Positions 391 through 41,002 of a stretch of 42,218 nt of DNA are shown piece by piece. The stretch spans positions 1-42,218 of the IMG/VR virus record IMGVR_UViG_3300032304_002675, one strand, 5' to 3'. The stretch comes from a virus. The position numbers and the translations under genes were made by a program. The notes under the pieces are model-generated. The model ran no database searches. It was not told where the DNA came from and saw nothing but the letters and a program-made list of their open reading frames with translations. Within the stretch, counting starts at the first letter, position 1. Each line of letters begins with the position of its first letter.

Positions 391-3009
391 CTATTTGCTT
401 GGGGAGATAATTCTGTGGGTCAGTTGGGGGATGGCACCATAACTGATAAGTCTTCGCCAACACAAATAGGAACAGATAATTGGTCAAGTGTTGCTTGTGG
501 AAATAGTTACACTTTGGCAATTGGAAATGATGGAAAACTTTTCGCTTGGGGAAGCCATTCTAATGGTCAATTAGGAGTGGGAGGCTCCTTATCTAATAGG
601 ACTTCTCCAACACAAGTGGGAACAGACAATTGGTTAGGTGTTGCTTGTGGGGCTTTGCACACATTGGCAATTAGAAGCGATAGAAAACTTTTTGCTTGGG
701 GTTCGAATAGTGATGGGAGGCTAGGAAATGGAACTGTTTCTTTGGGATTTAGCGCCCCAATACAAATAGGAACAGATGATTGGTCAAGTGTTGCCTGTGG
801 AAATCGTCATACTTTAGCAATTAGAAACGATGGAAAACTTTTTGCTTGGGGAGATAATTCTGTTGGTCAGTTGGGAGATGGCACCACAACTGATAAGTCT
901 TCACCAACACAAATAGGTACAGACAATTGGTTGAGTGTTGTTTCTCAATCTGGGGCTCTTCACACTTTGGCGATTAGAAGTGATGGAAAACTTTTTGCTT
1001 GGGGAGCGAATTCTGTTGGTCAGTTAGGAGTGTCAGGCGCCTTGACTAGTAGGACTTCGCCAACACAAGTAGGCACAGACAATTGGTCAAGTGTTGCTTG
1101 TGGAAGTAATTACACTTTGGCAATTAGAAGTGATGGAAAACTTTTTGCTTGGGGGTGGAATATCGCCGGGCAGTTGGGGGATGGCACTACAGAGACTAGG
1201 TATTCTGGAATACAAATAGGAACAGATAATTGGTCAAGTGTTGCCTGTGGTAGTGCCAGCACTTTGGCAATTAGAAGTGATGGAAAACTTTTTGCTTGGG
1301 GAGCGAATGGCTCTGGGCAGCTAGGAGATGGAACTACAACTGACAAGTCTATTCCAACACAAATAGGCAACAATAACTGGTCTGTGGTGTCTAGTGGTGG
1401 TAGTCATTCATTAGCAATTCCTTTAGGAAATCTATGGTCTCAAGTTGGCTCAGACATAAATGGAGAGGCGTCTCAAGACTATAGCGGATGGAGTGTAAGT
1501 TCAAATGGGGCGGGAGATGTTATTGCGATTGGGGCTCCTTATAACAATGGAAATGGAATTGACTCAGGTCATGTGAGAGTTTACGCTTGGAATGGAGCAT
1601 CATGGGCACAAAGAGGTTCAGATATCGACGGAGAAGCCGCATCGGATTATAGTGGAGTCAGTGTTAGTTTAAATAATGATGGTACTATTGTTGCTATAGG
1701 CGCACCACAAAATGACGGAGCAGGTTCAAATTCTGGTCATGTAAGAGTTTATGTTTGGAATGGAACTTCATGGATTCAAAGAGGAACAGATATCAATGGA
1801 GAAGCTGCCGGAGATCAAAGCGGAACCTCGGTCAGCATAAGTGACGACGGAACTGTTGTTGCGATTGGCGCTCCATATAATGATGGCAACGGAATCGATT
1901 CTGGTCACGTGAGAGTTTACGCTTGGAACGGCACTTCCTGGGCTCAGAGAGGAACAGATATCAACGGAGAAGCCGCCGGAGATCAAAGTGGACATTGTGT
2001 AAGTTTAAGTGGAGATGGCGCTATCGTTGCTATAGGGGCTCCATTAAATGACGGAGGTGGATCGAACTCGGGTCATGTAAGAGTTTTTGCTTGGAATGGT
2101 ACTTCCTGGGCGAAGAGAGGAAATGACATAGACGGCAAAACGACTAGCGACCAGAGTGGTGTTGTATTGAGCACGAATATAGTAGGAACAATCGTAGCAA
2201 TAGGATCCTATTACAGCGATGCCAACGGCGTAGATTCTGGCCAAGTTAGGGTTTTTGAATGGAACGGCACTTCTTGGACGCAAAGAGGAAACGATATTAA
2301 TGGAGAATTGGCTGGGGATCGTTTGGGCACAGGTATTAGTCTGAGTGAAAGCGGCGACATTCTTGCAATCGGCGCTTCCTACAACGATGGAAATGGCGCT
2401 GACGCTGGTAGTGTGCGAGTCTATACTTGGAACGGAATTTCATGGATTAGAAGAGGAAACGATATTGATGGAGAATCGGCAGGAGATCTAAGCGGCTACA
2501 GCGCAGCATTGAGCAATAAAGGAAACACTCTTGTTATCGGAACTCCGGGAAACAACGGATTTACAGGTCGCGTTAGAATTTATTCGTGGAATGGAACATT
2601 AGGCTCGCAAGGTTTTGGAAATTTAGGTACGCACACAACAGATACAGGAGATATCAATACTGCTGGTGCGTTTACTTTGACGGACGTGCGATCAACAGCC
2701 AGCAAGACAGGTTATTTCACCAATTTTGCATCTTTTTCACAGTTGGGATCTTTGTCGTTCAATACGAGTGTCGGTACGAGTCTGAGATTCTATCATCCAG
2801 CCTTGGGAACTTTTGTTTCAAACAGTATAACAACAACATCTAACATATCGACACCGGGCAAAGTAAGAAACATAACGATAATAGGCACTCTTAGTGGTGG
2901 AACATTAGGGAACATATCGCCGAACAACATTCCAGTAAGATTGGCAGTTTCTTTCACGCAGTCTGGTGCGGCAATAAGTTCTTCTATAAACTTGAACCTG
3001 GGGCAATAA
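1..3009 (+). CDS. Giant adhesin-like protein with Thr/Pro stalk, RCC1 propeller and second seven-repeat propeller (5' end missing)
   Basis: The frame is open from base 1, so the gene begins upstream; 1002 residues are visible. Residues 1-130 are a low-complexity Thr/Pro/Ala/Ser stalk built on TPTPTASA units. Residues about 130-475 hold seven RCC1-type repeats, each with LFAWG...GQLG and a following (S/C)GxxxTLAI strand, which fits a seven-bladed propeller. Residues about 478-870 hold seven copies of a second unit (W.QRG.DI.GE..D.SG, then IAIGAP..D, then SGHVRVY.WNG), similar to FG-GAP/integrin-alpha or WD-like blades. About 130 further residues form an unrecognised C-terminal domain. There is no signal peptide in view. 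Placed in a phage with a nearby tail module, it could be a receptor-binding or tail-fibre protein; that role is inferred. The domain calls are firm and the function is not. Confidence 0.8.
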
Positions 3010-3010
3010 A

Positions 3011-3877
3011 GTGAAATTTTCAGAATTTGCATCAAATAAGAACAAAAAAAAAGTAGTCTTAATAATAGGATCCGCAAGATCACCGGATTGTTGCCCGAAT
3101 GAAAAAAGCAAAACGCACAAACTTGCCGATCATTTGACTAGTAAATTTAAAGATGAAGTTTTGTTCGAAATCATCGATTTGTCAGTAAAGTGTGATGGAA
3201 TAAATGTACAACCTTGCAAAGGATGCGTAAGCACATCGGCTTTTCACTGCGCCTGGCCGTGCAATTGTTATAGCAAGGAGTCCGATCCGAAAGACTTGAT
3301 GCAAAACCAAGATGTATATGAAAAACTTGAGGATTGTGATGGGTTTTTTGTTTTAACTCCAATCAATTGGAGTGCTTGTTCAAGTGTAGTGAAGAGTTTT
3401 TTTGATAGACTTGTGTGCGCTAGTTTAACAATTACAGCAAAAGAAGCCGGAGAAATACTCGGCAAAGATTCGATAAAAGATAGTAGAAAAACAAGAAAGA
3501 TCGAAAAAGAAGGTAAGCACAATGATCTGCTGAAGAATCATCTTCAAGGAAAGTACGCAGGGTTTTTTGCTCATGGAAATGAAGGCGGCTCCGATTACTT
3601 AGAATTTTCCGCTAAAAAGAAGACTAACTTGCCCATCATTCCCGAAAGTCTCACAGAATATGAAAACAAGCACGGCAAGGAAGATGTATCTAAACTTTTA
3701 GACCCGTTGGTCAGACAGTGTGTTTACTCAGGAATTTTTGTTCCCGATGATTGCATTCGTGTCGTAACCTATGGATTTGGAGTTTCGTATTCTGATGTGA
3801 ACGATTTATTCAAAAAAGACGAAGAGTTAAAAGAATCTTCTTCAGAAGTGTTTGAAAATTTTGTTTCTAAACTTTAG
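3011..3877 (+). CDS. NAD(P)H-dependent FMN reductase / flavodoxin-fold protein
   Basis: Starts at GTG one base after the stop of the upstream gene, so probably co-transcribed with it; 288 residues. Residues 14-130 look like the NADPH-dependent FMN reductase fold: a hydrophobic strand followed by the GSAR phosphate-binding loop, a Cys cluster (PCKGC, then CAWPC) where family members have C-x2-C, then the LTPINWSACSS segment that contacts flavin, and SFFDRL. The family transfers electrons from NAD(P)H to FMN, quinones or other acceptors. The C-terminal 130 residues are unassigned. The N-terminus (MKFSEFASN) faintly resembles the leader described elsewhere in this window but lacks the closing Glu. 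It converges with the next gene, the stops overlapping in TTAG. Confidence 0.75.
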   Translation: MKFSEFASNKNKKKVVLIIGSARSPDCCPNEKSKTHKLADHLTSKFKDEVLFEIIDLSVKCDGINVQPCKGCVSTSAFHCAWPCNCYSKESDPKDLMQNQDVYEKLEDCDGFFVLTPINWSACSSVVKSFFDRLVCASLTITAKEAGEILGKDSIKDSRKTRKIEKEGKHNDLLKNHLQGKYAGFFAHGNEGGSDYLEFSAKKKTNLPIIPESLTEYENKHGKEDVSKLLDPLVRQCVYSGIFVPDDCIRVVTYGFGVSYSDVNDLFKKDEELKESSSEVFENFVSKL

Positions 3878-4650
3878 TCTGAAAAAACTACGCACCAATA
3901 GATTTTGCCGTTTTTGTCTGCTTTTGTTCCAAATCCAACCTTTTCATAGTCTGACCCGAGAATGTTCCATCTATGTCCGGGGCTCCACATCCAGCTATTA
4001 ACAACTTCGTCTTCATCTTTTTGACCCCAGGCTATATTTTCTCCGACCGAATTTGAGTCTATAACTTTTGCCAAATCTTTCATACTGGAGTGTTCTAGGT
4101 TCTCTTCTCTTGCCATTTTTTCGGCATGGTTTTTTGCGTATTTGCAAAGAGATTCATTCATTTTCAACGTCTTATAGCCTCTTGAAACTCTCTCTTTGTT
4201 GTGATTTTCAAGAAGTTTCACTTCGATCGTTGAATATTGGATATTATTCTCGACGTGTTTGTTTAGAAATTGATCAAACTTATTTTTATCATATCCCTCC
4301 ATCCTCGACAGTTCTTTTTTGTTTTTTAGAATCAAAACAGTAGGAAGAGATTTAACTTTATAGAGTTTTTTAAGGTCTTCTCTTTGATCTACATTGACTT
4401 CGCATATGACAAAATCTTTTAGATTTTTTGAGGCGAGATTTGTCTTTAGTTTCACACAATAAACACACCAATCGGCTCCAAAAACGATAAGAACTTTTTT
4501 GTCTTTATGACTTATTGCTTTTTCGTAATTATCCTCAACAACAGGCTTAGAAATTTGAGGTGCTGGTGCGGGGGAAACGATTTCAGAAGGATCGACTATC
4601 TTGTTACTGCACCCCGATATAAGCAATAAAATTAAAAGAAATTTTTTCAT
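3874..4650 (-). CDS. Lipoprotein with thioredoxin and CAP/SCP domains
   Basis: 258 residues, behind an AAGGAGG ribosome site three bases before ATG. An N-terminal lipoprotein signal is visible (hydrophobic LLILLL, then ISGC with the lipid-attached Cys14). Residues 40-135 form a thioredoxin domain with WCVYC (Cys62, Cys65) and the cis-Pro loop SLPT. Residues 142-258 form a CAP/SCP (YkwD-like) domain with His187 in EHSS, GENIAWG at 203-209 and SPGHRWNIL with His226; these are typical CAP cavity residues. The protein is expected to be anchored in an outer envelope membrane of an infected cell. Both domains are recognisable; the combination in one phage-encoded lipoprotein is unusual. Possible roles are disulfide handling or envelope modification during infection (inference). 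Confidence 0.85.
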   Translation of the reverse strand: MKKFLLILLLISGCSNKIVDPSEIVSPAPAPQISKPVVEDNYEKAISHKDKKVLIVFGADWCVYCVKLKTNLASKNLKDFVICEVNVDQREDLKKLYKVKSLPTVLILKNKKELSRMEGYDKNKFDQFLNKHVENNIQYSTIEVKLLENHNKERVSRGYKTLKMNESLCKYAKNHAEKMAREENLEHSSMKDLAKVIDSNSVGENIAWGQKDEDEVVNSWMWSPGHRWNILGSDYEKVGFGTKADKNGKIYWCVVFSD

Positions 4651-7990: not shown

Positions 7991-8140
7991 ATGAGCAAAG
8001 AGAACAAAGAAAAAGATATGCTGATTCGTGTTCAACCATCATTGTTTGAGCAGTTCAAGAAAAAGTGTGAAGAAAACTATAAGACAATAAGTGAAGTAGT
8101 CCGTGATTTCATGGTCAACTACACCAAAGAGGACAATTGA
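7991..8140 (+). CDS. Small ribbon-helix-helix (CopG/Arc-like) protein of the IS element
   Basis: 49 residues. After a charged MSKENKEKD start, MLIRVQPSLFEQFKKKC fits the beta strand and first helix of a ribbon-helix-helix domain, and YKTISEVVRDFMVNY fits the second helix. Arc/CopG proteins with this fold bind DNA as dimers and often autoregulate. The TGA overlaps the TTG start of tnpB (TTGA), so the two are probably translationally coupled. An out-of-frame ATG at 7987 gives only a 20-residue product. Likely role: repressor of the element's promoter or an accessory to TnpB (inference). Confidence 0.75.
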   Translation: MSKENKEKDMLIRVQPSLFEQFKKKCEENYKTISEVVRDFMVNYTKEDN

Positions 8141-9378
8141 ACCATCTGTATTCTTACAAATTTAGGTTGTATCCTACCAAACAACAAGAAGTTTTGCTAA
8201 ACAAACACTTCGGTTGTGGAAGGTTTGTATACAACCATTTTTTGGAAAAAAGAATACACGAATACAAGAACAACAAAAAGTCAATAAGCAGAAAAGACAA
8301 CGAAAAAGAACTGCCCGTCTTGAAGAAAGAAAACCCTTGGTTGAAAGAAGTAGGAAGTCAAAGTCTGCAATACGCTGTTGAGTGTCTACAAACTGCGTAT
8401 GACAACTTTTTCCGCAAAGTCAAACAAAAGAACAAAGGCAAAAAAGGATTCCCAAGATTCAAGCGTAGACATGACAAACAATCATTCCGAGTCAAGCAAA
8501 ACATCAAAATCAAAGACAAAAAGTTGATTTGTCCCAAGTTTTTGTCGGGCATCAACTTTGTACAAGATCGTGAATTTAATGGTGAAATTAAGTTTGCAAC
8601 AATTAGCAAGAACAAAGTTGGTCAATACTTTGTTTCAATCACTGTTCAAAAAGAAATACTACCGTTGAAAGAATCGTCAGAGGTTATTGCGTTTGACCTC
8701 AATGTTAAAAATATAGTTGACAGCAACGGCAACAAAATACAAAATCCAAGACCAATGAAACAGTACGAACAACGAATGAAACTTTTGAGCAAAGGTGCTA
8801 GTCGTTGCGAAAAAGGAAGTAATGGCAGAAAGAAAGCCAACCGAAGGTTGGCTAAATTACACTTGAAGATAACAAACAAGCGTGAAGATTTTCTACATAA
8901 GTTAACTCACCGTATAATCAACGAAAACCAAGTGATATGCGTTGAAGACTTGAGTGTAGACTCCATGCTTAAAAAGGTTAGTTATGAAAAAAGAGAAGAA
9001 ACAAGAAAACAAGAACGCAATAGGCATAAAGATATTGCTGATTGTGGGTTCCGCTCTTTTGTTGATAAACTGACCTACAAGGCAAAGTGGTATGGAAGAC
9101 AATTAATTAAAGTTGACCGATATTTTCCGTCTAGCCAACTTTGTAATAATTGCTGTTTTCAAAACAAAGAACTAAAACCTACCGATAGAGAGTGGTTTTG
9201 TTATAACTGCTTTGAGAGTGTTGACCGTGACCACAACGCCGCCTTGAATATACTTGATGAAGGATTAAAATACAGAACGGTAGGAACTACCGAGTTAGCC
9301 GCTTGTCCTGATGTAAGACCCGCTATTAGTGGGCTATTGGTTGGAGCGGAAACCCACCCGTCTTTAGCGGGTGGGTAG
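8137..9378 (+). CDS. tnpB: RNA-guided nuclease TnpB
   Basis: 413 residues from a TTG that overlaps the stop of the RHH gene. The N-terminus (YKFRLYPTKQQ...FGCGRFVYNHFL) is the standard TnpB wedge/REC start. RuvC motifs are intact: Asp187 in IAFDLNV, Glu270 in VICVEDLSV, and Asp363/Asp365 in DRDHNAALNIL. A zinc finger, CNNC...CYNC, lies at about 335-357. Length is normal for the family. TnpB cuts DNA next to a target-adjacent motif using an RNA from the element's right end; it helps retain the element. All expected catalytic residues are present, so it is probably active. Confidence 0.93.
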   Translation: MNHLYSYKFRLYPTKQQEVLLNKHFGCGRFVYNHFLEKRIHEYKNNKKSISRKDNEKELPVLKKENPWLKEVGSQSLQYAVECLQTAYDNFFRKVKQKNKGKKGFPRFKRRHDKQSFRVKQNIKIKDKKLICPKFLSGINFVQDREFNGEIKFATISKNKVGQYFVSITVQKEILPLKESSEVIAFDLNVKNIVDSNGNKIQNPRPMKQYEQRMKLLSKGASRCEKGSNGRKKANRRLAKLHLKITNKREDFLHKLTHRIINENQVICVEDLSVDSMLKKVSYEKREETRKQERNRHKDIADCGFRSFVDKLTYKAKWYGRQLIKVDRYFPSSQLCNNCCFQNKELKPTDREWFCYNCFESVDRDHNAALNILDEGLKYRTVGTTELAACPDVRPAISGLLVGAETHPSLAGG

Positions 9379-10036: not shown

Positions 10037-10047
10037 TTTAGATTTTG

Positions 10048-10056
10048 TATATATTT
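10048..10056 (+). promoter_or_regulatory. TATATATTT box before the 10073-11887 operon
   Basis: TATATATTT lies 16 bases before the ATG at 10073, a sensible distance for a promoter -10/late-type element with a short leader. It is identical to the strings at 9430 and, on the other strand, 13583 and 14663. Confidence 0.45.
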
Positions 10057-10072
10057 GAACTAGATTATTCAA

Positions 10073-10165
10073 ATGGTTGACAGACAAAAATACATGCCTA
10101 ATTTTCTATTGATTTCATTATTTGTTTTTGCTATTCTTTTGTGTCTGCTTTCGGAGATTTTATGA
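10073..10165 (+). CDS. Thirty-residue single-span membrane peptide
   Basis: A short ORF: charged MVDRQKYMPN, then a single hydrophobic stretch (FLLISLFVFAILLCLLSEIL) to the stop. The TGA overlaps the ATG of the next gene in ATGA, which supports real translation as the first cistron of the operon that ends with the caspase-like and zinc-peptidase genes. Function unknown. Confidence 0.5.
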   Translation: MVDRQKYMPNFLLISLFVFAILLCLLSEIL

Positions 10166-10311
10166 GCGTTTCGGGTGTTAGAGTTATTCTTGAAAATGGC
10201 TCATCCGGCGTAATTGTGAGACGACTTAATGCAGAATCGTACGAGATATGGCTTGAAAGTGATGAAATAGTTATTTTGAGCCCGAAAGAATTTAAAGAGG
10301 TTGAAAAATGA
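10162..10311 (+). CDS. Small beta-rich protein of unknown function
   Basis: 49 residues, linked to both neighbours by ATGA overlaps. The sequence looks like a small beta barrel: VRVILENGSSGVIVRRL, YEIWLESDEIVIL, then a Lys/Glu tail. It could be a compact SH3-like or regulatory protein; no family is recognised. Confidence 0.5.
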   Translation: MSVSGVRVILENGSSGVIVRRLNAESYEIWLESDEIVILSPKEFKEVEK

Positions 10312-11255
10312 GAACTTTTATTTTATTTCTATTTATGTGCTCTTGCGCTTTGGCTCAAGATAAAACAGGAATAGCAGTCGATCCTTCTGCCCAAAACATT
10401 GCTGCTTTGTTCACAATGACCAATGAAAATGGAAGGACCAAAAATCTTGAACTTATGGAAGAGGTTTTCAAAGATGGTTCTTTGGGTTTTGAAGTGGAAA
10501 AGCACCATAATGTTTCTTCTGCTTATATTTACAAAAAAATGACCGAGCTTGCCACGAAGTTAGAGAGCGGAGCAACTCTTCTTCTTTACTTCAATAGTCA
10601 TGGTGGCGGTAGCGGAGACAGATTTGGCATGACGGCTCAAGGAGGAAGTTTTAAGTTTAGTAAAGGACTTGATGCGCTAAGTAAGTCCGGGAAACCGATA
10701 CGAAGATTAATATTTCTTGTTGACACGTGTCATGCTGAAGGAAGTATTCAAGACAGTCTAAAACAAGATGGAGAGCTTCTCAGAAATATAAAAACAGCCA
10801 CTCCAACTAATTTTCTTCCAGAACTTCCCTCTGTTTATTCGAGGAAAGAACTTCCTTTTGTATCGATATTTTTGAATTCTATTCCAGTGCAAGGTCAGCA
10901 ATATGATCTAGCAATAGATTATGGCGAGGATTCTGGAGTCTACGATGAGATACTAATCATTAGTTCGAGTAGTGTCGAAGATCTTTCTATCAGAGGCGCC
11001 TTTGCCTACAGATTCAATATCGCTCTTAAATCGGCGAAGAATAATAGAAATACTACCGTGGGTGAGTTTCTGAAAAAATTTGCAGAAAGTCATGGACCAT
11101 CGGGGCAGCAACCTCACTACAAATTGCTCCCTGACAAGTCCATGCTCGATGAACTTCTATTTGGTCCTTGGTTTGTTCAAACTATTCCCATCAGAGATCA
11201 TTCAGGAAAAGGTCAGAAAGCCGACCCCAACTTCATTCCTCTGCCGAAAAAATGA
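10308..11255 (+). CDS. Secreted caspase-like (clan CD, C14-type) protease
   Basis: 315 residues. The start MRTFILFLFMCSCALAQ is a Sec signal peptide with a likely cut after Ala-Leu-Ala. The mature part has the caspase/metacaspase fold marks: a strand LLLYFNSHGGG with His98, and the strand RLIFLVDTCHAEG with Cys141, giving the His/Cys dyad. A downstream strand, DEILIISSSSVEDLS, fits the strand that lines the substrate pocket. The C-terminus is unassigned. Family members cut after Asp, Arg or Lys. Export to periplasm or cell surface is predicted. It is flanked by two small genes upstream and a zinc-peptidase gene downstream, all coupled by ATGA overlaps, so the two peptidases probably act together or one processes the other (inference). 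Confidence 0.78.
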   Translation: MRTFILFLFMCSCALAQDKTGIAVDPSAQNIAALFTMTNENGRTKNLELMEEVFKDGSLGFEVEKHHNVSSAYIYKKMTELATKLESGATLLLYFNSHGGGSGDRFGMTAQGGSFKFSKGLDALSKSGKPIRRLIFLVDTCHAEGSIQDSLKQDGELLRNIKTATPTNFLPELPSVYSRKELPFVSIFLNSIPVQGQQYDLAIDYGEDSGVYDEILIISSSSVEDLSIRGAFAYRFNIALKSAKNNRNTTVGEFLKKFAESHGPSGQQPHYKLLPDKSMLDELLFGPWFVQTIPIRDHSGKGQKADPNFIPLPKK

Positions 11256-11887
11256 AAATTAAAAAGATAACAGACAATATTGCTGCTCTGGTTATTCCTG
11301 ATAATTACGAAAGAGCCATGCTTTTTTGTAGAGTCCAAGAGTTTTACGAGAGTCCGGGCTTGCAATTTAGAAATAAAAAATTTTGCATTTGGGACTATTT
11401 CCGTTGGTACTCAAAAAAAACAGGCTGCTTTTCATATCCTAAAGATTTTGTTGGATATAATTTACCTTTAATTGTAGCAAAAAAATGTTATGAAATAAAT
11501 GACGTTCAGACTCCTTATGATCAAACCATGAAAGACGTTATTGATAGTCTTTGGGAAAACGGCAAAAGAATGTATTTGATTGGCGTTGATTCATTGTCGA
11601 ACTCTGTTTTTGATCATGAACTCGCTCATGCATTCTACTACTGCGATCTGTCTTACAAGAACAAAATGGACAGTCTGACTAGGAAAATTTCTGCTACCTT
11701 TTTGAAGAGGTTTAAGAAGAATCTAAAAGAAATGGGATATTGCCCTTCTGTATTTAAAGATGAAGTGCAAGCATACATGTCGACAGAGTTAAATAAAAGA
11801 ATACTAAAAGGCATACCCAATAAACGAGAATTGCACAAGAAATATAAAGAGGTTTTTAAAAAATACAGAAAATCTTCAAAACTTTAG
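11252..11887 (+). CDS. Putative zinc metallopeptidase (HExxH)
   Basis: I chose the ATG at 11252 because it overlaps the caspase-like stop in ATGA; a longer frame from 11168 lies wholly inside the previous gene. The product has 211 residues. HELAH (His122, Glu123, His126) is a zinc-peptidase motif; a candidate third ligand is the Glu in KDEVQAYMSTEL about 50 residues later. The N-terminal half has KFCIWDYFRWYSKKTG and no recognised domain; the C-terminus is Lys-rich. No signal peptide is present, so it would be cytoplasmic unless packaged or released by lysis. It converges with the ArdC-like gene, their stops overlapping by four bases. Confidence 0.65.
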   Translation: MKIKKITDNIAALVIPDNYERAMLFCRVQEFYESPGLQFRNKKFCIWDYFRWYSKKTGCFSYPKDFVGYNLPLIVAKKCYEINDVQTPYDQTMKDVIDSLWENGKRMYLIGVDSLSNSVFDHELAHAFYYCDLSYKNKMDSLTRKISATFLKRFKKNLKEMGYCPSVFKDEVQAYMSTELNKRILKGIPNKRELHKKYKEVFKKYRKSSKL

Positions 11888-13625: not shown

Positions 13626-14171
13626 ATGGAACAAACTACACAAGCGGAACAAAATACACAAGATTTGCCTCTTCTAGATCTGCCTAGAAAAGTAAAATTA
13701 GGTTATTCTATTTTTGGAAGGGCTGTTTTCGCCACAGAAGACATAAAAAACGGAGAATTAGTTGAACGTTGCCCAATGGAAATTCTTGCATTTAGAATGA
13801 ATTATCATAAAGATCCTGTGGTCTGGTCTCATATGTTTACGAGCACATGTCCTTGCGAAGAGTGCAAGAGACATGGAGGTCATATACTTATGGTCATGGG
13901 ATTTGCTCAGATGTATAATCATCAAGATGACCACTCAGCCGATATTAAATTTGATTTAAAAAATAAGATAGCAGATATAGTTGCTCGTCGAGATATTAAA
14001 AAGGGTGATGAGATATATCTAAATTATGGGCCAAAATACTTTAATAACAGAAAAAAAATCACTCTGAACGCGGATGGGTCTCCCTCTGAATCTGCTATGG
14101 TGGAAAGTGTAGAAGGCACTAAAGAAGTCACGTCTACATTTGATAGTTCAAAAGTATTCAAACCTCTCTAA
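13626..14171 (+). CDS. SET-domain protein (first of two)
   Basis: 181 residues. Residues about 20-140 match a SET domain: GRAVFATEDIKNGELVE (SAM-side loop), a Cys-rich insert CPCEECKRHGGH, the N-H-x-x motif as YNHQDDHSADIKFD, and the closing GDEIYLNYGPKYF. SET proteins methylate Lys using SAM, although phage and bacterial members can act on non-histone targets. There are no pre-SET or post-SET domains. The first 18 residues are Gln/Thr-rich (QTTQAEQNTQ), and the C-terminal tail is Ser/Val/Glu-rich. Diverges from the ArdC-like gene across 44 bases. A second SET gene closes the window. Confidence 0.8.
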   Translation: MEQTTQAEQNTQDLPLLDLPRKVKLGYSIFGRAVFATEDIKNGELVERCPMEILAFRMNYHKDPVVWSHMFTSTCPCEECKRHGGHILMVMGFAQMYNHQDDHSADIKFDLKNKIADIVARRDIKKGDEIYLNYGPKYFNNRKKITLNADGSPSESAMVESVEGTKEVTSTFDSSKVFKPL

Positions 14172-36205: not shown

Positions 36206-39200
36206 ATGGCAAAGATTGTAGGACAAGACACAGGGATAACAATATCGGATGACGTTCGATTTATATTAGACACAACAGACGGAGACGACTGTGCTGTTTC
36301 GCCGTATCAAATTACGAACGCGACAGTATATTTTGTTTCGAGAGAGTTTACAGACAGCACTGCTAAAGAATATGAACGTGAAACCCTAAATTCTAATCTT
36401 CAAGCAGAATATAATCTCGTAAAAAGACAAATATGTCTCAAGAGAAAAGAAGCCGTACGGGTCGCTACAACACAAGGCATTCAATTAACAGGACCGCGAA
36501 CAATTGATGGAGTTTCTGTTGTTTCTGGAGATCGTGTGCTTGTTAAAAATCAGACAAATTCTTCGGAAAATGGAATTTACGTCGTCACAGAAGAGCGTTG
36601 GGCTCGATCCAACGACGCAAACAGTTCCGATAATATTGTAAAAGGAATGTATGTTTTTGTGGAAAATGGAATTGATAATATTAACACAGGTTGGGTTTTA
36701 GATTGCCCAGAACATATTTCTTTAGGAACTACACAATTAAACTTTTTCAGATTCTCCTATCCGGATAACTTGGCAGACGCTCCCGATGGCAATTCTCTTG
36801 AGACATTGAATTTACTGAGAAAGAGAATTGACGAATCCAAGTCCGTTTCTTCTTTTTTCTATAAAAATGCGATCCCTGTCAAGACTTTTGGCGGATATAC
36901 AGATCCTGATACTGGAGAGTTGTTTCCCGCATGGCTCAATCCTGATCTAGTGCCCTCTGAGCTTAAAGAAAAAACAATACAAGATAACATTATTCAACCT
37001 TATTATGAAAATGATGAAGCTGTAAAAGGGAAGTTTGTTCTTGAATGGAAGCCTTTAGAGTGTAGAGAAGGCGATTACTTTATTTGTTGGTCTTGGATGC
37101 CTAATCTAGCGGGCAGAATTCTATCTTCTCACATGTTTTTCATGCTAGAGGGAGATAGTCGTCTTAACACAAGCATACCAACGCACAGAACAAGACCAGA
37201 TAAGTATGAGATTTTAATGGATCGTTATTTGCCTGAGATGTTTAAAACTATCATCTCTGAAAATGATTTGACACCCACCGTACTACAGGAATTCAACAAA
37301 TCAGTGGCGAGAGGATTTACATTTATAGAGGACATGGCCAATCAAATAATTGATCTTCTTGATGCAAATGCCACGCACGAACAACTTCTTCCACTTTTGT
37401 CGAATATGTTCAACTTAAAGTTAAGGTCATCTGATCCTACTTTATGGAGAAGACAAATAAAGAAAGCCATTCCCAACTTTAAAAGAAAGGGCACAATAGA
37501 AGGATTGAGAAACGGTCTTTCTGATGTCGGAATAAAACTTTTAAAGATAACAAAGTTGTGGCAAGTTGTATCAAAATACACTTTTCAAGAACATTTTGTA
37601 TACTCCGGCTCGGACGAGTTCGAACTCTCTAAAAAAATAATACTTCCTATAGATTCTAATTTTAGACTCTGGCTGAGACCGGCTGCGCATTCGGAATGGC
37701 AAGACATTACGTCAGACCATGAAAGCAAAATAAGCCTGACCGAGGATTCTTTAACATGGATTGACGAACCTCTTGAACAGGGAGACCAGATCAGAATTAT
37801 TTATAAATTCAGAGAAATACCTCCTCAAGAGCAATCTTTGGAAGACTACATTCAAACTCTTCCTCTTATGGACGATAGAGATGAACGAGAGCAAGAATAT
37901 CCTCCAAAAAATTGGAATGTTCGCCTAGTTGAAGAAGATGATGATCTTTTCGACATACTTGTTCCTGTGCGTCATCCAATATCAGATCCAATAATTTGGG
38001 GTCGTGTAAGGACAGAATTTCCATATAGTGAAAATGCCTATAACATGGAAGAATACAATGGCTGTTGTGTCGGATCAACTTTGGTCATAACTGAAAATGG
38101 GATCAAAAAAATAAAAAACATAAAAAATGATAAACTGATTATGACAGAATTTGGATTTAAATCATTTGAAGAATTAAAAAACCAAGGCAAGAAATCAACA
38201 TTAAATATTACAACTAGTTTGGGCAGAAACATTATTGTAACTCCCAACCACAGATTTAAAATTTTCAATGAATCTGGTTTTGAATGGAGGCAAGCCGATC
38301 AGCTAGAAATTGGCGATTATATCTTATGTAAAAAAGGAAATTGCGGATCAATACCGAAAAATAAAGGTTTTGATAAGGAATTGTGGTACTTGGCTGGTCA
38401 TCTGTATGGGGATGGTAATCTATATGAGAAAAATAATTTAAGATCTTTTAGATGGCTAATATCGGAAAAAGAACCAGAAATAAAAGAATTAATTTCTAAA
38501 ATAATAATAAAAAACAATGCAAAATCGCAAATATTTTGTATTAAAAAACATAATCATCAGAAGCACACGAAACTTAAATGCAATGAAGATTTATATAGAA
38601 TTTCCAGTTCCAGCGTACAACTACCTATTTTAAATCAAATTATACCCAAATACGAAACTAAAGGAAAATGGAGAAGATGCCTTCCTAATTCCATCTGGGA
38701 GAGTGGCGAGGAGCAAATTTGTAGTTTTCTGCGGGGTTTGTTTGATACAGATGGCGGAATTCAAAAAAGACAACCTTTGTTGACAACTAAGTGGAAGAAT
38801 TTAGCAAGAGAAATTCAAAATTTGTTATTGGCACTAGGGATTGTTTCTTCAGTAACCAGTTACAATGTTTTTTGGGAAGGAAAAAAGAGAAAGTATTTTA
38901 GAATAAGAATTGTAGGTAAAAATAGTAGAAAAATATTCAAAGATAAAATAGGATTTAATTCAAATATAAAAAATAAATCTTTAATAGACGCCATAGAATT
39001 AGAAAATAAATCTATTTTAGAGGCGGATAGGACAATCATTCCGTTTGGAGACAAGATAATAAAAAATATTTTTCCTTTCAGAAAACGACTATCTAGGTTT
39101 AATTCAAATAATCGAACAAGAGAAGAAAAAAGAACTTTAACCTTAATTACAAGATTAAAACAAGGATATCAAAAAACTATCCCAGATAATGTAGTTTCCG

Positions 39201-41002
39201 AAATTCATCATAAAATTAAAGAATTTAAAATTATTAATAGTACAGAGACTAATTTTATTCAAGATTATGTTGATAATGATTGGTTCTTTGAAAAAATAAA
39301 AAGTATATCCCCCGGTCCTGTGGAAGATGTTTTCGATCCTCTAAACGTAAAAGATACGTCTTCATACGTTTCTAATGGTATAGTTTCTCATAACTCTACA
39401 AGAGAAAGCACCGATCCATGCGACATAGATAAAGAATTCGTCGATGGATGCGGACAATGCCAGAGTAGCAAGTTCACTGTCGATCTAGAGGTCGAGCGTT
39501 TGTCGGATGATAGTCTTGAAGAAGCCAAGCAAACCATATCTGACTATATGCCTTTTCACTCTCTCGTTCATTCTCTTAATTTAAGTGGAGCCATGAACGA
39601 GTTTGTCAGATCATCAGAAGAAAGAATAGAGGCTCTTGTTCAATTTTCAAAAGAAGATGTGCTTCTTGCCGGTGAAGGTCAGCACATATTTAATAAAGCC
39701 ATGGATTCAGAAGAGTTAGCAAGTTTCAAAAGAGATATGTTGGCTAGTTTTTCTGCGGTACCTAGTTCAGGGAGTAATTTGCAGTGGTCCGGTGTCGTTT
39801 CAAATCAAAGAGTCGTTCTTTCTTCTTCAGTTTTAAGCTCAGAACAAGATCTTTCGAATTTAGATTTCAAAGGAAAGAAACAAGGGTTCGATTCTATTAG
39901 TATTAACACTGGCGATTTGGACGTTGATCCAAGACAGAGTAGCAACTTGCTTGAAGTCCTTGGGGAATCTCAATATGAATTTTCGGTTTCTTCCGTTGGT
40001 TTGAATTCAATGGAAATTTATGGCGATGTGGAAAGTTCTGTGATCGGTCCACTTTTTGAATATAGAATTTCAAATAAAATAGGAGATTTCACCGCAGATA
40101 TTGAACAAGCAAATCGATTTGTGCTCACAGATGTTGATGCTGATTTTTGGATGCTTGGAGTCATATCTCAACATGATATCGAGATTGGCTCTTTGAACTC
40201 TGCTTGGAGATTGAGACATTTAAATAAACAATACATTGTACAAAATGTATTGCCCGATGGAACTCTTCTTCTTTCCGAGGAGTCTGTAGTAACTCCTGTT
40301 ATTGGGTGGTTTTTATATGACGGATCAGGAAATTTAATTAAAAGTTCAAATTCAGGATCTTTGAGCACAATTAAATTAGGACTTGTGGACATAGGACAAG
40401 AACAAGGATTAGCCATAAATGACTATGTTTATATTGACAACTCAAAATATAAAATAAAATCATTAAAAAATGGGGAAGAGGGCAAGTTTTACATAGAAAA
40501 TTACGAAGAAGGAGAGGAATACGGTAAAAATATCTCGATATACAGAAGAATACTAGAAAATAAGGTCGGTCAGTTTGCGTATGAAGGAATAAAATTAATA
40601 TCTTCTTCAAATCTTGCAATTTCTACGTCTAATGCTGATGATATCAAAGAAAACTTTCTTATTTTTATGGATTCAAAATACTACACTATTTTGTCGGTAA
40701 ATTCTAATGAATTGACGCTTTCTGGTCCCATAGATGATTGGACGACAGATGGCGCGGAAGTAGATTTTATGGTTTACAAATTTGACAAACAAAGCAAACA
40801 AATAAAGGAACGAACAGAGCCTCCGGTTCCTGCGGGTTCTTTTGAGCGACTAGACAGGTCAGGAGCGGCGATAATAAAAAACATACAAGATAATGCCCTA
40901 GGAGCAGCCGTTTCGATGTTAAACATGTCAAATTCAAATGAAAAAACAGACTTGGTTAAGCAGAATGAACATATAGACTTCAACATTGAATACAAGGAAT
41001 GA
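36206..41002 (+). CDS. Tail_P2_I/gp7-like baseplate protein interrupted by an intein
   Basis: 1598 residues, of which 621-1063 are an intein; the mature protein would be 1155. N-terminal residues about 92-175 are the common phage repeat domain TTQGIQLTGPRTIDGVSVV...GDRVLVKNQTN...NGIYVV found in fibre proteins. Residues about 395-445 match Tail_P2_I (LLPLLSNMFNLKLRSSD, RRQIKKAIPNFKRKGT), the wedge-to-fibre connector. A Cys-rich stretch straddles the intein site (NGC | STRESTDPC, then CGQCQ). The C-terminal 500 residues are beta-rich and may be fibre attachment. Preceded by AAGGGG. The fusion of a fibre-like module with Tail_P2_I is unusual but the order matches a wedge protein. Confidence 0.78.
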   Translation: MAKIVGQDTGITISDDVRFILDTTDGDDCAVSPYQITNATVYFVSREFTDSTAKEYERETLNSNLQAEYNLVKRQICLKRKEAVRVATTQGIQLTGPRTIDGVSVVSGDRVLVKNQTNSSENGIYVVTEERWARSNDANSSDNIVKGMYVFVENGIDNINTGWVLDCPEHISLGTTQLNFFRFSYPDNLADAPDGNSLETLNLLRKRIDESKSVSSFFYKNAIPVKTFGGYTDPDTGELFPAWLNPDLVPSELKEKTIQDNIIQPYYENDEAVKGKFVLEWKPLECREGDYFICWSWMPNLAGRILSSHMFFMLEGDSRLNTSIPTHRTRPDKYEILMDRYLPEMFKTIISENDLTPTVLQEFNKSVARGFTFIEDMANQIIDLLDANATHEQLLPLLSNMFNLKLRSSDPTLWRRQIKKAIPNFKRKGTIEGLRNGLSDVGIKLLKITKLWQVVSKYTFQEHFVYSGSDEFELSKKIILPIDSNFRLWLRPAAHSEWQDITSDHESKISLTEDSLTWIDEPLEQGDQIRIIYKFREIPPQEQSLEDYIQTLPLMDDRDEREQEYPPKNWNVRLVEEDDDLFDILVPVRHPISDPIIWGRVRTEFPYSENAYNMEEYNGCCVGSTLVITENGIKKIKNIKNDKLIMTEFGFKSFEELKNQGKKSTLNITTSLGRNIIVTPNHRFKIFNESGFEWRQADQLEIGDYILCKKGNCGSIPKNKGFDKELWYLAGHLYGDGNLYEKNNLRSFRWLISEKEPEIKELISKIIIKNNAKSQIFCIKKHNHQKHTKLKCNEDLYRISSSSVQLPILNQIIPKYETKGKWRRCLPNSIWESGEEQICSFLRGLFDTDGGIQKRQPLLTTKWKNLAREIQNLLLALGIVSSVTSYNVFWEGKKRKYFRIRIVGKNSRKIFKDKIGFNSNIKNKSLIDAIELENKSILEADRTIIPFGDKIIKNIFPFRKRLSRFNSNNRTREEKRTLTLITRLKQGYQKTIPDNVVSEIHHKIKEFKIINSTETNFIQDYVDNDWFFEKIKSISPGPVEDVFDPLNVKDTSSYVSNGIVSHNSTRESTDPCDIDKEFVDGCGQCQSSKFTVDLEVERLSDDSLEEAKQTISDYMPFHSLVHSLNLSGAMNEFVRSSEERIEALVQFSKEDVLLAGEGQHIFNKAMDSEELASFKRDMLASFSAVPSSGSNLQWSGVVSNQRVVLSSSVLSSEQDLSNLDFKGKKQGFDSISINTGDLDVDPRQSSNLLEVLGESQYEFSVSSVGLNSMEIYGDVESSVIGPLFEYRISNKIGDFTADIEQANRFVLTDVDADFWMLGVISQHDIEIGSLNSAWRLRHLNKQYIVQNVLPDGTLLLSEESVVTPVIGWFLYDGSGNLIKSSNSGSLSTIKLGLVDIGQEQGLAINDYVYIDNSKYKIKSLKNGEEGKFYIENYEEGEEYGKNISIYRRILENKVGQFAYEGIKLISSSNLAISTSNADDIKENFLIFMDSKYYTILSVNSNELTLSGPIDDWTTDGAEVDFMVYKFDKQSKQIKERTEPPVPAGSFERLDRSGAAIIKNIQDNALGAAVSMLNMSNSNEKTDLVKQNEHIDFNIEYKE
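38066..39394 (+). other. Intein with LAGLIDADG homing endonuclease
   Basis: 443 residues (621-1063 of the precursor). Begins CVGSTLVITENG with Cys1 and the G-x-T block, holds block B as NHRFKIF (TPNHRF), and ends GIVSHN followed by Ser as the first C-extein residue. The two endonuclease motifs, LAGHLYGDG at about intein residue 109 and LRGLFDTDGG at about 222, have their acidic residues. The Cys at 620 is adjacent, so a cut one residue earlier cannot be strictly excluded, but C-V-G-S-T is the better start. Splicing would join ...EEYNGC to STREST. All catalytic residues look present; Ser is used at +1. Confidence 0.93.

Follow-up and report, generated by a model that had tools for sequence, protein, structure and literature searches.

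A caspase-like protease of large T4-like phages, predicted to be exported through the host Sec pathway

Bacteria have caspase-like proteases, which are discussed there in connection with cell death and defence, and so do viruses that infect eukaryotes. What would such a protease do if it were made by a phage and carried an export signal? The question is raised by a cluster of four genes in a virus record of IMG/VR (IMGVR_UViG_3300032304_002675, positions 1 to 42,218). The whole stretch of 42,218 nucleotides is called the window here. It encodes a tape-measure protein and T4-like baseplate proteins, and its closest named record is LR756511, an uncultured phage of 595 kb, with protein identities of 48-52%. 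For these reasons the window is, as judged from its gene content, a piece of a large T4-like phage with a contractile tail. The initial annotation had found a phage-encoded, exported caspase-like protease unexpected, and the tail genes in the same window do place the gene in a phage. The 42,218 bases contain no tRNA genes.

The rest of the window holds several other genes of note. An intein with a LAGLIDADG domain splits a Tail_P2_I-type tail gene (36206-41002), and a TnpB/OrfB-type gene of the IS605 kind stands alone at 8137-9378. A SET-domain protein, having a methyltransferase fold that is commoner in eukaryotes, is encoded at 13626-14171, and RCC1 repeats are combined with FG-GAP-like repeats in one protein at 415-3009.

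The gene cluster is composed of the following elements.

10046..10057, + strand: TATATAT promoter-like element, about 20 bases 5' of the first mini-gene (enriched upstream of genes)
10073..10165, + strand: 30-residue protein with an MVDRxK start and one hydrophobic segment (homologues in L002, L003 and L006)
10162..10311, + strand: 49-residue small conserved protein (homologues in L002, L003, L006 and L007)
10308..11255, + strand: 315-residue exported caspase-like (Peptidase_C14) cysteine protease, predicted from Pfam, a model, an alignment and a signal rule
11252..11887, + strand: 211-residue HExxH protein, predicted cytosolic zinc peptidase (motif conservation, weak fold match)

The coordinates of all four reading frames agree with the initial annotation, and each successive pair shares an ATGA. 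Because of these overlaps and the upstream TATATAT element, the four frames would form an operon. Close relatives keep both mini-proteins; the 49-residue protein has no match in Pfam. In L002, L003 and L006 the two mini-genes are separated by a HAD-type gene (HAD_SAK_2 in L003), which is absent from the window.

The 315-residue protein matches Pfam Peptidase_C14 (PF00656) with 44.6 bits, the cut-off being 21.4 (E=1.9e-11), and 10 of 11 homologues match the same family. An AlphaFold model calculated from 11 sequences has a mean pLDDT of 66 and a pTM of 0.73, with values of pLDDT below 50 in the loops following His98 and Cys141. The model can be superimposed onto procaspase-3 (VIA) with a Z score of 16.1 and an rmsd of 3.0 over 184 residues. 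The matching range, residues 15-287 of the model, includes the p10-like part of the fold. His98, in the motif FNSHGGG, is the last residue of strand 3 (90-98), and Cys141, in VDTCHAEG, that of strand 4 (131-141). The structure search against C14 proteases, proposed earlier as a check, thus found the caspase fold: MALT1 was the first hit in Foldseek, followed by caspase-1, and BFVD gave as its best matches the caspase-like proteins of giant viruses that infect eukaryotes. One of the refuting outcomes named beforehand, a model devoid of this fold, therefore did not arise. The caspase-like identity proposed from the sequence is borne out by the family score and the model, and the suggested dyad residues are correctly numbered and kept in 18 aligned homologues. 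A search of PHROGs with the protein gave no match. A marginal C14 candidate in LR756502 was dropped, as it is devoid of the catalytic motifs.

The homologue set comprises 20 loci on IMG/VR contigs of 7-381 kb. Six caspase-bearing contigs have clear matches to phrog_2, which we take for the large terminase; the one in L008 falls at the same place as a Pfam T4-type terminase. His98, Cys141, Glu40, Asp139, Arg229 and a QQP motif are invariant in the 18 aligned proteins. The gene is under strong purifying selection with dN/dS of about 0.04 (0.035-0.043 in the four pairs with computable dS, one of them near saturation). From its sequence, the protein is a conserved C14-type protease of large phages and probably active. 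With the methods used, no homologue of it was detected in the INPHARED phages or in plasmids. Two scans of GTDB contigs, keyed on short exact motifs that distant bacterial metacaspases could escape, found no relative either. Nor did the PADLOC models match, and they thus lend no support to a link with catalogued bacterial defence proteins. A literature search, in which coverage of subscription journals was slight, returned no report of an exported C14 or caspase-like protease encoded by a phage.

The residues lining the S1 pocket lead to a prediction of specificity. In caspases these are Arg and Gln (Arg64 and Gln161 in caspase-3), which give specificity for Asp. Metacaspases and MALT1 have an acidic S1 pocket, and metacaspases and orthocaspases (C14B), with the motif D-x-C-H-S-G, cut after Arg or Lys, often in a calcium-dependent manner. 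In the phage protein, Glu40 is aligned with the S1 Arg in two HMMER alignments and Asp139 with the Gln of QACRG in one. The hallmarks of caspases proper (C14A), the S1 Arg and the QACRG Gln, are therefore absent, and Glu40 and Asp139 take their places in 18 of 18 proteins. The third S1 position (Glu224/Asp225) is variable in distant members. The D-x-C-H part of the metacaspase motif is retained in the phage motif DTCHA-x-G, whereas Ser is replaced by Ala. Because acidic residues stand where caspases have Arg and Gln, the protease is predicted to cut after Arg or Lys and not after Asp, a firm prediction that can be tested. As these residues are acidic in all 18 homologues, the name "caspase" should not be understood to imply aspartate specificity here.

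A signal-like hydrophobic segment is found at the start of all 18 aligned proteins. In the window protein the signal occupies residues 1-16, with an ALA|Q cleavage site read by eye, and the N-termini of the homologues begin with basic residues and continue with a hydrophobic core, most of them showing an A-x-A-like site before Gln. The assignment was made not with SignalP but with a simple home-made rule, which was tested on 380 phage ORFs of at least 100 residues. The rule was satisfied by 14 of the 18 homologues and by 8 of the 380 ORFs. Of these eight, four are caspases, three are thioredoxin-like and one is trypsin-like. The Sec-type signal reported earlier is thereby upheld, and export of the protease by the Sec pathway is strongly predicted. 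In 11 of the 18 homologues the catalytic Cys is the sole Cys beyond the first 21 residues, which would suit an oxidising compartment. The N-terminus of L019, L021 and L022 may be an uncleaved anchor.

Of the 39 genes in the window, 6 have a TATATAT no more than 60 bases upstream, which is 15 times the rate expected, and TATATAT/ACTATA elements are enriched 5' of genes in several of these phages. Elements of the TATA type precede the caspase gene or its operon in several lineages, and in L008 the caspase gene follows the large terminase gene. On account of these elements and of the position behind the terminase in L008, the caspase-like gene is probably expressed late in infection. The T4 motif TATAAATA was rejected as the element of these phages, having no clear enrichment, unlike TATATAT/ACTATA in several of them.

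Unrelated proteins in the window have in common an N-terminus resembling M-x-F-x-x-W-L-x-x-x-E (6921(-), 9441(+), 13581(-), 14677(+) and 19383(-)), which is also present in L129-L131, L138 and L142. Its carriers include GP88-like proteins, ArdC-like antirestriction proteins and CCA-type nucleotidyltransferases, among others. Their genes are often situated right behind TATATAT, and the N-terminus is reminiscent of a capsid-targeting peptide.

The HELAH motif that had been pointed out in the next gene is present, at residues 122-126 of the 211-residue protein. His122, Glu123, His126 and Glu171 are invariant in 61 relatives, and Glu171 provides the downstream Glu that, with HExxH, is the hallmark of gluzincins. 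The naming of this protein as a zinc peptidase is thus substantiated as far as the motif is concerned, with a predicted zinc site of invariant residues, but less so by the fold, for which the match to PPEP-type and M34-like metallopeptidases is weak (Z of 4.7 at best). The protein belongs to no Pfam family; a BAR_3 match was under the cut-off and was judged to be a helix artefact. It has no export signal. The family is wide in phages, with 118 matching stretches, and has members in XacN1 and LR756502; the "ABC transporter" label on the XacN1 relative was judged from homology to be a mislabel. A relative in LR756502 (L103, 3923-4693) has a capsid-targeting-like N-terminus and is encoded two genes before a portal-like gene.

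A further exported protein of the window could be an accessory of the protease.

3874..4650, - strand: exported thioredoxin-CAP lipoprotein, possible accessory (Pfam Thioredoxin and CAP; signal and lipobox-like start)

Its fusion of a lipoprotein-type signal to thioredoxin and CAP domains is unusual. Six of the 17 caspase contigs (the window, G002, G003, G006, G010 and G013) encode an exported thioredoxin-like protein, compared to 1 of 19 others. Trypsin-like proteins give the same counts, 6 of 17 against 1 of 19 (p=0.037, or p=0.073 when one duplicate contig is left out). Since fragments are compared, and fragments of related phages, the association is weak and suggestive only. It is conceivable, if unlikely, that the Arg/Lys-directed caspase-like protease, the exported thioredoxin and the exported trypsin-like protease form a toolkit in the periplasm by which the phage seizes the host envelope late in infection. 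The thioredoxin would then keep the cysteine of the protease reduced.

For the 315-residue protease, computation establishes the C14 membership, the caspase-like model, the conservation of catalytic and pocket residues and of the export-type N-terminus, and purifying selection. That it cleaves, and with what specificity, where, when, on which substrate and to what end, is what we infer. The best reading, to which we give an even chance, is that of a periplasmic, Sec-exported and Arg/Lys-directed protease of the caspase superfamily (clan CD), which clips envelope proteins. A large T4-like phage would make this cysteine protease, and the protein would leave through the host Sec pathway with cleavage of its signal peptide. 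In the periplasm, a term that assumes a host with two membranes, it would act as a single-chain enzyme with a caspase fold. The His98-Cys141 dyad would cut after Arg or Lys by way of the acidic S1 pocket formed by Glu40 and Asp139. The clipping of host envelope proteins would probably help release, block competing phages, or both. The host envelope is our best inference for the site of action, and superinfection exclusion, which had been suggested along with action on envelope proteins or defence effectors, is one of several purposes that the protease may have there.

Rather than remodelling the envelope in general, the exported protease might destroy a host defence or stress factor located there, or the exclusion protein of a rival phage. 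Such a counter-defence is favoured by the uneven occurrence of the gene in related phages, by neighbours that look like accessory genes, an ArdC-like antirestriction gene among them, and by the strong purifying selection; however, the protease has neither a PADLOC match nor a known target, and the neighbour genes vary from lineage to lineage. We regard it as possible but rather doubtful. The signal peptide and the exported trypsin- and thioredoxin-like companion genes would also be in keeping with a moron product that goes to work extracellularly once the cell has lysed, for instance by breaking down proteins of the environment or of cells nearby. This seems improbable, as there is neither a second secretion tag nor a surface-binding domain to be seen, and GTDB contigs yielded no close bacterial source.

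An enzyme of the legumain and GPI-transamidase type (C13) would join or cut at Asn instead of Arg/Lys. Peptidase_C13 does give weak matches in 8 of 11 homologues, the best being 0.00084, and an alignment with GPI transamidase spans the HGG and DTC motifs with an E value of 0.25. Yet the window protein reaches only 11.4 bits against a C13 cut-off of 22.8, compared with 44.6 bits for C14, and caspases and MALT1 lead the fold ranking, so that this is very unlikely. There is still less to be said for a single proteolytic system in which one of the two, the caspase-like protein or the HExxH peptidase, activates the other, a notion prompted by their adjacency in the window clade and, in opposite, convergent orientation, in L011-L013. 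The predicted compartments of the two proteins differ. No HExxH gene adjoins the caspase gene in at least ten loci (L008, L009, L010, L015-L019, L021 and L022), and in G013 the two genes are about 110 kb apart. The peptidase also occurs in many phages where no caspase was detected: none turned up in 30 records that carry the HExxH gene or come from near it, a set having no positive control. The earlier grouping of the two proteases as one functional unit is thus not sustained. As the two genes adjoin in some lineages only, a partnership is improbable, and the HExxH protein most likely works on its own as an enzyme of the cytosol.

A conserved and exported caspase-like enzyme of large phages would place this fold with the attacker and beyond the cytoplasm. 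It also offers a clear, testable prediction of specificity and a well-delimited group of homologues on which to do biochemistry.

Among known systems, PPEP-type and related HExxH metallopeptidases share with the 11252-11887 protein the HExxH motif, the downstream Glu and a weak similarity of fold; the latter protein, however, reaches a Z of only 4.7 and lacks both a Pfam family and a signal peptide. Caspases (MEROPS C14A; caspase-3 and -7) have the same fold, the same His-Cys order and the same strand positions as the 315-residue protein, which differs in having Glu40/Asp139 for the S1 Arg/Gln, a signal peptide, an origin in a tailed phage and no death domains. The Arg/Lys-directed C14 enzymes, namely metacaspases, orthocaspases and MALT1, resemble it in the D-x-C at the catalytic Cys and in the acidic residue replacing the caspase S1 Arg, whereas the phage protein has DTCHA and not DxCHSG, is phage-borne and is without a close homologue in GTDB contigs. 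In the bacterial metacaspases that start with a hydrophobic segment (PMC3501461), one C14 domain likewise follows what is likely to be a signal peptide, but the present protein is encoded by a phage; all that PMC3501461 reports in this respect are phage-related metacaspase operons in a clostridium. The caspase-like proteins of giant viruses are virus-encoded C14 domains as well, but the hosts of those viruses are eukaryotic, whereas here the domain is carried by a tailed phage.
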